From: Planctomycetota bacterium
GTDB lineage: Bacteria > Planctomycetota > UBA1135 > UBA2386
Assembly: GCA_947444055.1 (NCBI GenBank)
Contig: CANEYR010000010.1
Coordinates: 17,102-81,101, forward strand
DNA: 64,000 nucleotides
Direction: 5' to 3'
The notes beneath the pieces were generated by a model. That model saw nothing but the letters and a program-made list of their open reading frames with translations, did not search any database and was not told where the DNA came from. Shown here piece by piece: positions 17,660-20,666 of the stretch. A program made the position numbers and the translations under genes. Every line of letters begins with the position of its first letter. Within the stretch, counting starts at the first letter, position 1.

Positions 17660-17857
17660 CGCCAACGTTCGCTGCCAGCGGTGCGACGAGTGTCCCGGCG
17701 CGAGATTGGCGCAACTGGCGATGGTGTCGATCGCACCGCTCCGCCAAGCCGCACGCTCCGGGCCGACGCCGACCGCGACTTCGCCAACGAGGTATTCTGT
17801 CGGTGAGCCGTGCGTGTGAGCGTGCGGCGTACCTCGTGTGGCTTCGTTGTGTGGTGG

Positions 17858-17896
17858 GGGGATCGAACCTTGTAGGTTCGATCCCCACTTTTTTTT
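17858..17896 (+). terminator. Intrinsic terminator
   Basis: A 12-bp perfect stem (GGGGATCGAACC with GGTTCGATCCCC, 5-base loop TTGTA) is followed at once by eight Ts at 17889-17896. It lies about 200 bases after the stop of the gene ending at 17659 and just before the GTG at 17934. The 3' arm resembles a tRNA T-arm, but no tRNA can be completed around it. The bases between 17660 and 17857 hold nothing else that I recognise. Confidence 0.85.
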
Positions 17897-17933
17897 CCGC
17901 GGTGTGGTTCGCGTTGGCTACGGTCGCCAGCCC

Positions 17934-19274
17934 GTGAGCATTCTGCGCGATCCGGTCCACGGCGACATCGAACTCTCCCGCGACGAGCTGCGGCTCGTCG
18001 ACACCGTCGAGTTCCAACGCCTGCGTGGCATCAAGCAACTCGGTAGTGCGGCGTTCGTCTATCCAGGGGCGACCCACACCCGCTTCGAACACTCGCTCGG
18101 CACGCTGCACGTCTGCGAACAGTTGCTGCTCGCTTGCAACAAGAACGCGGCGAAGGCGGCGGACTGCTTGCACGTCAGCGAGGTCGAACGGCGACTGCTG
18201 CGCACGGCGGCGTTGCTGCACGACGTCACCCACATTCCGTTCGGTCACAACATCGAAGACCAGACCGGCCTGCTGCCGCGGCACGATGAACCGGAGCGCT
18301 TCCGAGCGATGTTGGGCGACACCGAACTCGGCGCCGAGTTGCAGCGGCAAGGTCTGCGCGACGACGTGCTGGCGATCCTGACGGGCGAAGGCCGCGCGGT
18401 GCCACCGTTCTGGCGGCAGGTGGTGAGCGACACGATCGATGCGGACCTGCTCGATTACCTGCGTCGCGATGCCCACTACACCGGCCTCGAGTTGCGGTAC
18501 GACCGACGGGTCATCGACTACTTCCGGGTCGATAAGAAGAGCGGGCAGATGTTCGTCGACTGCGAGAAGAACGGCATGCTGCGCGAAGACATCGTGTCGG
18601 AGCTGCTGCGGGTGCTCGAGTGCCGCTACCACTTCAGCGAACGCGTCTACTACCACCACGCGAAGATCGCCGCCGGCGCCTTGCTGTCGCGCATGGTGGA
18701 ACTCGCCCTGCAGAGTGGGGCGTTGACGGCGAGCGAGCTGCAATCCCTGACCGACGAGTTGCTGGTGTTCCGTCTCGGCGAGATCGAACTTGGCGATGCC
18801 AAAGCCACCGAGCGGTTGCGTCGCTTCGTCGCCAGGTTTCGTCGGCGCGCGCTGCCGAAGCGAGTGTTGGTGTTGCCGCTCTACCAAAACCACGGCGTGC
18901 AAGACGAGCTGCTGCGCACCTACTTCACGCCGGGGCAGCCCGAGGCGCGCTTTCGCTGGGAGGCTGAGATGGAACGGTTGGCGCAGCGCGAATTCGGCCA
19001 GTCGATCGACGTCATCCTCTATTGCCCCAAGCGCCGCATGCAGTTGAAGGAGGCGAAGACGTTGGTGCGCTTCCCGGGCGTGGGGGATCGCACCCTGCCG
19101 CTGGATGCCTTCGCCGAGCAGATTCCGCGGCTGCGCGACTTGGCCGAGAGTTACCCGCGCATGTGGAAGCTCTACGTGTTCACTTCGCTCGAGGACCGCG
19201 CGCTGCGCCGGCGCTTGCAGACGATGTGTATGGAGGCGCTGCCAGCCGGGTCCCGCAACGCGTTCGTGCTATGA
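17934..19274 (+). CDS. HD-domain phosphohydrolase, dNTPase/SAMHD1-like
   Basis: The product has 446 residues from a GTG at 17934. The start is set by the conserved family opening SILRDPVHGDIEL. The metal-binding HD motifs are present: GATHTRFEHSLG (His48, His53), LLHDVTHIPFGH (His96, Asp97, His100, His105), and a later Asp in DTIDADLLDYL. Family members hydrolyse nucleoside triphosphates or related phosphoesters in the cytoplasm; the exact substrate is not readable. It follows a strong intrinsic terminator and precedes the beta-barrel gene by 55 bases. Confidence 0.9.
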   Translation: MSILRDPVHGDIELSRDELRLVDTVEFQRLRGIKQLGSAAFVYPGATHTRFEHSLGTLHVCEQLLLACNKNAAKAADCLHVSEVERRLLRTAALLHDVTHIPFGHNIEDQTGLLPRHDEPERFRAMLGDTELGAELQRQGLRDDVLAILTGEGRAVPPFWRQVVSDTIDADLLDYLRRDAHYTGLELRYDRRVIDYFRVDKKSGQMFVDCEKNGMLREDIVSELLRVLECRYHFSERVYYHHAKIAAGALLSRMVELALQSGALTASELQSLTDELLVFRLGEIELGDAKATERLRRFVARFRRRALPKRVLVLPLYQNHGVQDELLRTYFTPGQPEARFRWEAEMERLAQREFGQSIDVILYCPKRRMQLKEAKTLVRFPGVGDRTLPLDAFAEQIPRLRDLAESYPRMWKLYVFTSLEDRALRRRLQTMCMEALPAGSRNAFVL

Positions 19275-19329: not shown

Positions 19330-20187
19330 ATGCTGCGCGTTCCCCTGATGACCTTGTTGCTGCTGGCGCCGCTGGCCGCGCAACTGGTGACGACGGATGC
19401 GGGAGTGATTTCGCCGGAGCTGCCGACGGTCAAGGAACGGCTCGAATGGTGGTCGCGGGAGCATGCCGACGAACTGCGCGCCATCACGCGCCTGTCGTGG
19501 GCGCCGGAACGGCGCCTGCAGCTCGACCTCGCGGTGCCGTTGGTCGCGCGCACGGTGGCGGTGCCAAGCACCGGCGGCGAATTGCGCGGCCGCCAGGAAG
19601 GACTGGGTGATCTCACGTTCGGCGCCAAGTGGGCGCTCGTGCGTGCCGACGACGTGATGCGTTCGGATCGGCTCTCGGTGCTGGCCGAGGTCTCGCTGCC
19701 GACGGGGGATGACAACGCCTTCGTCGATGGCGTCGATCTGGGACCGCGGGCTGCACTGGGTCTTGGCACGTTCGGTGGCTCGTTGGGTCTTGGCTACACG
19801 CTCGTGCGCGATCGCCATCGCGCGGCGGTGGCGTTGCGCGGCAGTGCGTTTGCGAGCGACGACGGGTTTGCGCCGGGCGAGGAGCTCGCGCTCGACGTGG
19901 CCTGGTGGGTGCGCTTGTCGCCGCGCGAGTTCTTGCCGGAGCACACGGGCCTCGAATGGCGCGGTGTGCTCGAAGTGCTGTCGCGCTGGCAAACTGATGA
20001 CACGGTGCGTGCAATCGATCAGCAGAACGGTGGTCGCGAGCTGTCGTTCGTGTTCGGTCTGCAAGCCAACCTCAATCTGGCGACCAGTTGTGAAGTGGGC
20101 GTCGTGGTGCCGCTCGACATCACTACGGGTTCACCATTCGGCGAGCCTGACTTCGGGCTGCTCTTCTCGTTCCGGGTGTCCTTCTGA
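19330..20187 (+). CDS. Outer-membrane beta-barrel protein, phenol-MetA-degradation/transporter-like
   Basis: The product has 285 residues. A short signal peptide (VPLMTLLLLAPLAAQ) is followed by alternating amphipathic strands. The GLGDLTFGAKWAL and VLAEVSLPTGDD blocks are typical of the PF13557 Phenol_MetA_deg/transporter family, and the chain ends in LLFSFRVSF, an aromatic C-terminus as expected for a beta-barrel. The ATG at 19330 is chosen over an adjacent GTG. Its stop overlaps the ATG of the selenoprotein-like gene (TGATG), so the two are likely co-translated. The name of the family should not be taken as proof of phenol metabolism. Confidence 0.8.
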   Translation: MLRVPLMTLLLLAPLAAQLVTTDAGVISPELPTVKERLEWWSREHADELRAITRLSWAPERRLQLDLAVPLVARTVAVPSTGGELRGRQEGLGDLTFGAKWALVRADDVMRSDRLSVLAEVSLPTGDDNAFVDGVDLGPRAALGLGTFGGSLGLGYTLVRDRHRAAVALRGSAFASDDGFAPGEELALDVAWWVRLSPREFLPEHTGLEWRGVLEVLSRWQTDDTVRAIDQQNGGRELSFVFGLQANLNLATSCEVGVVVPLDITTGSPFGEPDFGLLFSFRVSF

Positions 20188-20666
20188 TGCGTTCCCTCAG
20201 TCTGTTGGTGTGTGCATTGTCTCTCGCGGCCTGTCAGGTCGCGTTGCCCAAGGCCACCGCGGCGCCTGGTCACGGGCTGCAGCGGGTGTGGATCGAAACG
20301 CTTGGGCTCGAGTGATTGCCTTGAGCAAAGGCCGTGGCCGACGGCCTGCGGCGCCTGGATGGCGTCGCCAATGTGGAAGTGGACCTGCAAGCGAACGTGT
20401 GCACGGTGACGCCGACTCCGGATCGCTTGCCAGACTTGGCTGGGTTCCCTGCGGCCGTGCACGCCGCTGGCTATCGCCCAGCTCGGATGTGGGTGCAGGT
20501 GGTGGGCACGGCATCGGCAGCACCGGATGGGGGCCGACAGTTTCAGATCCAAGGGTCCCCGCTGTGGGTGCGGCTCGTCGGTGATGGGGACGTGACGAAG
20601 GCCTTCGTGGTGCGTTTGGAACACGCTCCGCAGTTGACGTTCGTGCCTGACCGCGCACCGCGCTGA
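20187..20666 (+). CDS. Probable twin-selenocysteine HMA-domain lipoprotein (UxxU)
   Basis: Read through two in-frame TGA codons (20313-20315 and 20322-20324), this is one 159-residue protein. Residues 1-16 are a lipoprotein signal with lipobox LAAC (Cys16). From about residue 34 the sequence follows the heavy-metal-associated fold: strand RVWIETLGLE, then U43-LP-U46, helix AKAVADGLRRLDGV, strand NVEVDLQANVCTV, and HAAGYRP. The TGAs sit exactly where the CxxC metal-binding cysteines belong, so selenocysteine insertion is the simplest reading. Two hairpins lie just downstream. A soluble C-terminal part of about 50 residues follows. It overlaps the barrel gene and would be exposed outside the cytoplasmic membrane, probably binding a soft metal or acting in redox. 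Sec machinery is not in this window. The alternative is a pseudogene. Confidence 0.8.
20330..20368 (+). promoter_or_regulatory. Two tandem hairpins, candidate bacterial SECIS elements
   Basis: Hairpin 1 pairs AGGCCGT (20329-20335) with ACGGCCT (20341-20347) around loop GGCCG, 20 bases after the first TGA. Hairpin 2 pairs GCGGCGCC (20348-20355) with GGCGTCGC (20361-20368, one G-T pair) around loop TGGAT, 31 bases after the second TGA. Both distances and loop guanines fit the usual bacterial SECIS layout. Hairpins are common in GC-rich DNA, so this is supportive only. Confidence 0.5.

Follow-up and report, generated by a model that had tools for sequence, protein, structure and literature searches.

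Metallochaperones such as CopZ and MerP use a CxxC motif. In a 64,000-nucleotide stretch of a Planctomycetota genome (assembly GCA_947444055.1, contig CANEYR010000010.1, positions 17,102 to 81,101 of the forward strand; hereafter the window), a gene is found for a predicted lipoprotein with a heavy-metal-associated (HMA) domain in which both Cys positions of this motif are taken by in-frame TGA codons. This gene, its relatives in the phylum, and the predicted outer-membrane barrel gene directly upstream of it are described here. Selenium in mercury-binding proteins has been reported before: a table in PMC2398784 lists MerP among the selenocysteine (Sec, U) proteins of the GOS metagenome, and Table 1 of PMC13188914, comprising 119 families or subfamilies, includes NF041115 (UxxU_metal_bind), with two Sec and the description 'putative mercuric reductase'. 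Both entries agree with the statement in the original prediction, made from the letters of the window, that Sec-containing MerP-like proteins have been predicted in metagenomes. The same prediction spoke of a rare chemistry; rare it is, but the printed Sec-containing MerP and UxxU family provide a precedent, and the occurrence of UxxU in an HMA-type metal-binding domain, as in NF041115, is already known.

The window protein shares with NF041115 an HMA-type metal-binding domain with both Cys replaced by Sec, but at 22.9 bits it stays well short of the curated threshold of 95; 6 of the 18 members of the family described below match NF041115 at E ≤ 1e-5 (best 2.4e-10). Further differences are its predicted lipid anchor, the extra beta part at its C-terminus, the position of its gene behind a barrel gene, and the existence of relatives with UxxC and CxxU. 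NF045683 (MerT_CopZ_Se) likewise includes an HMA-like part in a selenoprotein for heavy-metal transport, but is by name a MerT fusion, and the window protein scores 17.4 bits against its cut-off of 375. The Sec-containing MerP and mercuric transport proteins of PMC2398784 similarly place selenium in a mercury-binding protein, but the table shows no Sec motif for MerP, and the main text of that paper does not use the word lipoprotein. With regard to CopZ (NF047957, NF033795) and MerP (TIGR02052), the window protein scores 30.4 bits against a cut-off of 85 (NF047957) and 25.6 bits against 92.55, respectively, and, unlike either, is predicted to be lipid-anchored and paired with an outer-membrane channel. 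No merT or merA lies directly beside the window gene, the search for them having extended no further away, and the protein is not a MerP by this measure either. In the literature covered, including Table 1 of PMC13188914, the operon of barrel and lipoprotein was not found, nor were the lipoprotein form, tandem hairpins, UC and CU forms, UxU relatives, or a thioredoxin fusion; two papers by Haft and co-workers may bear on the operon.

The predicted double-selenoprotein gene occupies a 160-codon stretch on the + strand, positions 20187-20666 (MRSLSLLVCALSLAAC...), with TGA at 20313, at 20322, and at the end, and is otherwise open. From the ATG at 20187, the coding frame extends to 20663 and specifies 159 residues, followed by the terminal TGA at 20664-20666. 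The two internal codons, at 20313-20315 and 20322-20324 (+), would specify Sec43 and Sec46, the first and second positions of the metal site. A lipobox (LAAC, 20223-20234, +) ends in Cys16 and is followed by Gln, not Asp, at +2. Asp at this position is the basis of the outer-membrane sorting rule for lipoproteins, and the LAAC-Q sequence conforms to what is expected of a predicted outer-membrane lipoprotein. The HMA (ferredoxin-like) domain covers residues 31-105 (20277-20501, +) and matches PF00403 with 33.7 bits (E 4.7e-8, gathering cut-off 24.8) when both TGAs are read as Cys. Fold searches, one of which returned just one chain at E ≤ 0.001, also assign the predicted protein to the HMA fold, matching MerP and CopZ and not thioredoxin. 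The original claim of a frame with a lipobox and a complete HMA fold, interrupted only by TGA at both CxxC positions, is thereby upheld by prediction at residues 43 and 46. The C-terminal part (residues about 107-155; 20505-20651, +) is predicted to be all-beta, with a long strand at 97-111 and four further strands; the fold searches gave no match to it, and as this part was never queried alone, the absence carries no meaning.

That two random stops should hit exactly this pair of codons had been judged very unlikely, and the value for two stops among 159 codons is 1 in 12,561. In addition, the codons on both sides of the site look constrained as protein when the window gene is compared with its three closest relatives: dN (nonsynonymous divergence) is 0.09-0.15 and dS (synonymous divergence) 0.82-1.05 over the 15 codons before the site, and the respective values are 0.20-0.23 and 0.65-1.23 over the 58 codons after it.

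Homologues are distributed across the phylum. Among 61 genomes searched, nine gave a match at E ≤ 0.001, and four of these matches were nearly full length (E < 1e-40): the window genome itself, G001, and G006, with two TGAs each, and G011, which is placed in one family with the window genome, with one TGA (U-LP-C). In G004, a fragment was present at a contig end. Profile searches at the levels of order and class (154 genomes each) and phylum (392 genomes, with at most nine candidates scored per genome) added eleven UxxU members (G130, G106, G449, G196, G178, G341, G158, G292, G214, G263, and G352), two with UxxC (G122 and G234), and one with CxxU (G039). At E ≤ 2e-14, the phylum search returned 14 genomes, 13 of which had TGA inside the match; the fourteenth, G411, has a long uninterrupted frame with a CxxC domain, and matches with weaker E-values were mostly stop-free. 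An initial scan of genome contigs with peptides carrying Cys at the TGA positions detected no relative, and a second scan with alignment A1 found one locus, L031, on the contig of a Planctomycetota metagenome-assembled genome. A DNA search against plasmids gave no match.

Of the 18 members aligned in A4, 14 have UxxU at the metal site, three have UxxC, and one has CxxU, so that TGA stands at the first position in 17 of 18 and at the second in 15 of 18, with Cys in the remainder. A4 omits the UxU lipoproteins, an HMA-thioredoxin fusion, a protein of G118 (all described below), and the CxxC homologues; distant homologues with CxxC at the site include those of G040, G104, G105, G151, and L025 and the database proteins P0023 and P0024. 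TGA is therefore aligned with Cys at both positions, so that the comparison of orthologues proposed with the original prediction comes out in its favour. All 18 members match PF00403 at E ≤ 0.001, a lipobox-like motif is present in 17, and none has Asp at +2. In 21 related open reading frames (the 18 members, two UxU lipoproteins, and the HMA-thioredoxin fusion; 3,638 codons), 38 in-frame TGAs occur, all at the site, with no TAA or TAG, a count that tests the first 100 residues since most ends were set at the first stop past residue 100. The tree requires four changes of site label, at least three of them on well-supported branches, and includes several long branches, its details being unsure.

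Directly 3′ of the site, two adjoining RNA hairpins are predicted. The first (20329-20347, +), with the arms AGGCCGU and ACGGCCU, is a candidate Sec insertion sequence (SECIS) element, and the second (20348-20368, +) may be a second SECIS element or a stabilising hairpin. Over the 24 nt of hairpin 1, folding energies average -12.9 kcal/mol in the 18 TGA-containing members versus -6.0 in 30 controls (Mann-Whitney p 8.5e-7), and values of -12 or below were obtained for 13 of 18 members versus 4 of 30 controls. These controls, P-type ATPases among them, were the HMA sequences with CxxC that one motif picked up in the same loci. Hairpin 1 is retained in the UxxC rows of G011 and G122.

Covariation was examined in a gap-free alignment (A5) of 16 of the 18 rows, with G234 and G039 omitted because their hairpin lies in another register. 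Over 16 pairs, standard pairing was found in 90.6% of cells, compared with 80.9% in shuffles, and both sides had changed in seven pairs and 23 cells, compared with shuffled means of 4.4 and 9.6; these values were reached in 5 of 500 shuffles for pairs and 0 of 500 for cells, in a control that leaves the relatedness of the rows unremoved. When partners were slid by one to three columns, a control that does retain this relatedness, paired cells fell to 31-48%. RNAalifold, run without a given structure, proposed 14 of the 16 pairs. Columns 20-32 form the clearest pair, with C-G in eight rows, G-C in seven, and no pairing in one. This pair joins second codon positions and changes in step with the protein, K-A-x-x-D-G becoming K-G-x-x-D-A, a swap of residues that would most simply be explained by pairing in the mRNA. 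From their position and structure, the tandem hairpins are predicted to be SECIS elements; a SECIS-type hairpin directly 3′ of the UGA is indicated by folding and covariation.

The machinery for Sec is complete in the source assembly (5.35 Mb, 237 contigs, about 90% complete), as a search for selA, selB, selC, and selD proposed with the original prediction has now found: tRNA-Sec (74 bits, cut-off 47; anticodon TCA by ARAGORN), SelB (349.5 bits, cut-off 242), SelA (458 bits, cut-off 268), and SelD (about 358 bits, cut-off 125) are all present. The selD gene (L017, minus strand, about 928-1851) itself contains one in-frame TGA, at the catalytic position (RYASGSG-U-AAKLP), and is thus a second gene of this genome with TGA at a known Sec site. 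SelB is a weak discriminating control, being present in 32 of 38 genomes. The six genomes without it are G380, G394, G495, and G104, with CxxC homologues, G292, with UxxU, and G002, with no match; SelB and CxxC homologues occur together in G040, G105, and G151. TGA also terminates both genes of the predicted operon, so the code is not simply reassigned. Taken with the conservation of the site and the hairpins, the window protein is predicted to be a genuine double selenoprotein.

Positions 19330-20666 of the window are predicted to form a two-gene operon in which the lipoprotein gene follows a gene for a putative outer-membrane beta-barrel (19330-20187, +), whose TGA stop (20185-20187) overlaps the lipoprotein ATG. 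The barrel matches PF13557 (Phenol_MetA_deg) with 29.6 bits (cut-off 22) and is modelled as a COG4313/FapF-like channel, with 14-16% identity to the COG4313 channel Pput2725 (4rl8) and to FapF (5o65); the pairing with a beta-barrel gene recognised at the outset is in accord with this prediction. No report was found of Pput2725 or FapF paired with an HMA selenoprotein, no search having been aimed at such a pairing. Because PF13557 is too insensitive as a marker (8 of 18 barrels at E ≤ 0.01), tblastn homology was used instead, and a barrel homologue adjoins the lipoprotein gene in 16 of 21 neighbourhoods. In 17 of 21, the distance from the end of an upstream open reading frame to the start of the lipoprotein gene is -1 to 72 nt. 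The gene after the lipoprotein lies on the opposite strand and has no significant family match. Upstream of the barrel, the window holds an HD-domain, dGTPase-like gene (17838-19274, +; TIGR01353 33.6 bits, far below the cut-off of 152), and a gene resembling it by eye is at the same place in L031.

Several related forms were also detected. A second cassette in G178 comprises a barrel followed by a U-T-U lipoprotein (L096:7783-8289, +), and in G088 a U-I-U lipoprotein follows a barrel (L039:1426-1941, -). These two, from genomes that are distant from each other, are 27% identical (E 7e-13 in a single comparison), have no match in Pfam at 0.01, and possibly constitute a second double-selenoprotein family. 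Next to the UxxU lipoprotein of G196, a further predicted lipoprotein (L095:4872-5630, -) carries HMA (U-MT-U) and thioredoxin (WCGPC) domains in one fusion. A short lipoprotein-like HMA protein at L104:5283-5591 (-), and also in L062 (G118), has one TGA in GLT-U-PIS-C, with a three-residue spacing.

With regard to function, a recognised soft-metal gene was found nearby in 5 of 21 neighbourhoods (G196, G178, G234, G449, and G341), the window having none of these genes; the search used six query proteins from four loci over stretches of 6-20 kb, and others may be missed. In G196, a P-type ATPase of the copper type (TIGR01511, 608 bits) occurs with a MerR-type regulator; G178 has a P-type ATPase 59% identical to that of G196 and an ArsR-type regulator beside the cassette; G234 has one 55% identical to that of G196 and a MerR-type regulator. 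In G449, a MerR-type regulator is accompanied by a DF-family/MerC fusion (PF03203 31.9 bits, cut-off 27.6), and G341 has a CusA/CzcA gene (TIGR00914, 604 bits) that is partial and under the full-length cut-off of 701. Where scored, the MerR-type proteins remained below the TIGR02051 cut-off of 150.85, at 131.9 and 106.6. The regulators of G449 and G234 each carry three Cys, in a spacing that we take to be that of Hg-binding MerR. The role in metal handling suggested by the original prediction draws support from these five loci, and the metal is probably soft (Hg, Cu, or Ag). Two further observations concern single neighbours: the G449 fusion (L094:2614-3369, -), located after the MerR-type regulator, scores 45 bits with NF049942 ('DF family (seleno)protein'), below the cut-off of 70, and SelO (PF02696, 405 bits) is encoded directly 3′ of the UxxU lipoprotein gene of G130 (L041:3368-4954, +).

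We consider it probable that the operon encodes an HMA lipoprotein whose UGAs are likely read as Sec and which binds a soft metal, with Hg(II) or Cu(I) the likely candidates, where the channel opens to the periplasm. In this scheme, SelB would be brought in by the mRNA hairpins, allowing the decoding of both UGAs as Sec, and the protein would be lipidated and retained in the outer membrane's inner leaflet. Selenolates are deprotonated at neutral pH and are stronger soft-metal ligands than thiolates, and the two at the site would trap a soft-metal ion in the periplasm. The channel may then let the ion or its complex cross the outer membrane, with export, for detoxification, as the most likely direction. 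The HMA-thioredoxin fusion of G196 suggests that an oxidised site (a diselenide) might be kept reduced by a thioredoxin-type partner.

That fusion is equally part of the case for a true double selenoprotein in which UxxU is a redox couple, acting as a diselenide/diselenol oxidoreductase or as a peroxide scavenger. SelO is redox-linked, and its position beside the G130 cassette points the same way. According to PMC13188914, homology to thiol oxidoreductases or the presence of redox motifs is a feature of many selenoproteins. The HMA rather than thioredoxin fold and the metal-resistance genes near 5 of 21 loci speak against a redox couple, but redox chemistry would still be compatible with both, and we regard this explanation as unlikely.

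Soft-metal binding at the channel must also be weighed against an operon that serves the uptake or export of selenium or another metalloid (selenite, arsenic, or tellurium) instead of Hg or Cu. The ArsR-type regulator adjoining the G178 cassette would suit such a role, and COG4313 channels have been implicated in the uptake of hydrophobic molecules (PMC4493636). However, soft metal ions are the established ligands of HMA domains, and the five loci feature a copper-type P-type ATPase, a MerR-type regulator, a MerC-like protein, or CusA/CzcA, selenium-transport genes having been sought unsystematically. A metalloid function thus appears quite improbable.

It could further be argued that the TGAs are true stops in a pseudogene, or that only a 110-residue product is made from the GTG at 20334, and automatic annotation agrees with the latter. 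In a protein database, the window protein retrieved 18 sequences, its own stub and 17 others (P0003-P0019), of 107-114 residues, and 16 of the 17 start no more than four residues past the second metal-site position (in protein records whose DNA was mostly unseen). P0004 starts MPCAKAV, with Cys at that position, and P0011 is the sequence of G011, which has UxxC. When A4 was the query, 18 proteins reached E ≤ 1e-8 and five had not appeared before: P0020-P0022 start at or just past the second position, and P0023 and P0024 are longer, with CxxC. Stubs that begin at the site indicate that annotation often truncates this lipoprotein family there. One comparison weakens the case for a translated upstream part: between G011 and G001 or G006, the short stretch upstream of the site gives no signal of constraint (dN/dS 0.26/0.15 and 0.26/0.27). 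Nevertheless, TGA is at the site in all 18 members across the phylum with no other stop in the first 100 residues, a lipobox is present in 17, the window codons upstream of the site are constrained, and a product from the GTG would lack both strand 1 and the metal loop of its HMA fold; a pseudogene and a downstream start were both rejected on these grounds as very improbable. Equally remote is a reading of TGA as another amino acid (Trp or Cys) or by general readthrough, for which nothing specific speaks and which was rejected given that TGA terminates both operon genes, that only TGA or Cys occupies the two positions in 18 of 18 members, that the genome has a full Sec system with a TGA-containing SelD, and that the hairpins fit a SECIS role.

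A wider proposal, to which we give somewhat less than an even chance, is that these genes form a module of Planctomycetota dedicated to metal defence at the outer membrane. Its HMA protein, a lipid-anchored bis-selenolate that gene callers cut at the UGA, would bind Hg(II) or Cu(I) next to a FapF-like channel and have it expelled from the cell, and its relatives would include forms with a UxU motif and others with a thioredoxin of their own that recharges the selenium pair. To our knowledge, selenium as a soft-metal ligand, beyond redox catalysis or Mo/W and Ni enzymes, has been little studied. This small family, modelled with good confidence, offers all four Sec/Cys combinations at one site, and comparison of the UU, UC, CU, and CC versions would make it possible to measure directly how Sec affects soft-metal affinity, exchange, and oxidation. 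The family also points to a possible partner in the outer membrane for a metal-binding protein and provides a likely case of RNA base pairing driving paired amino-acid swaps, and it serves as a caution for annotation, as gene callers cut such proteins at precisely the site of interest.
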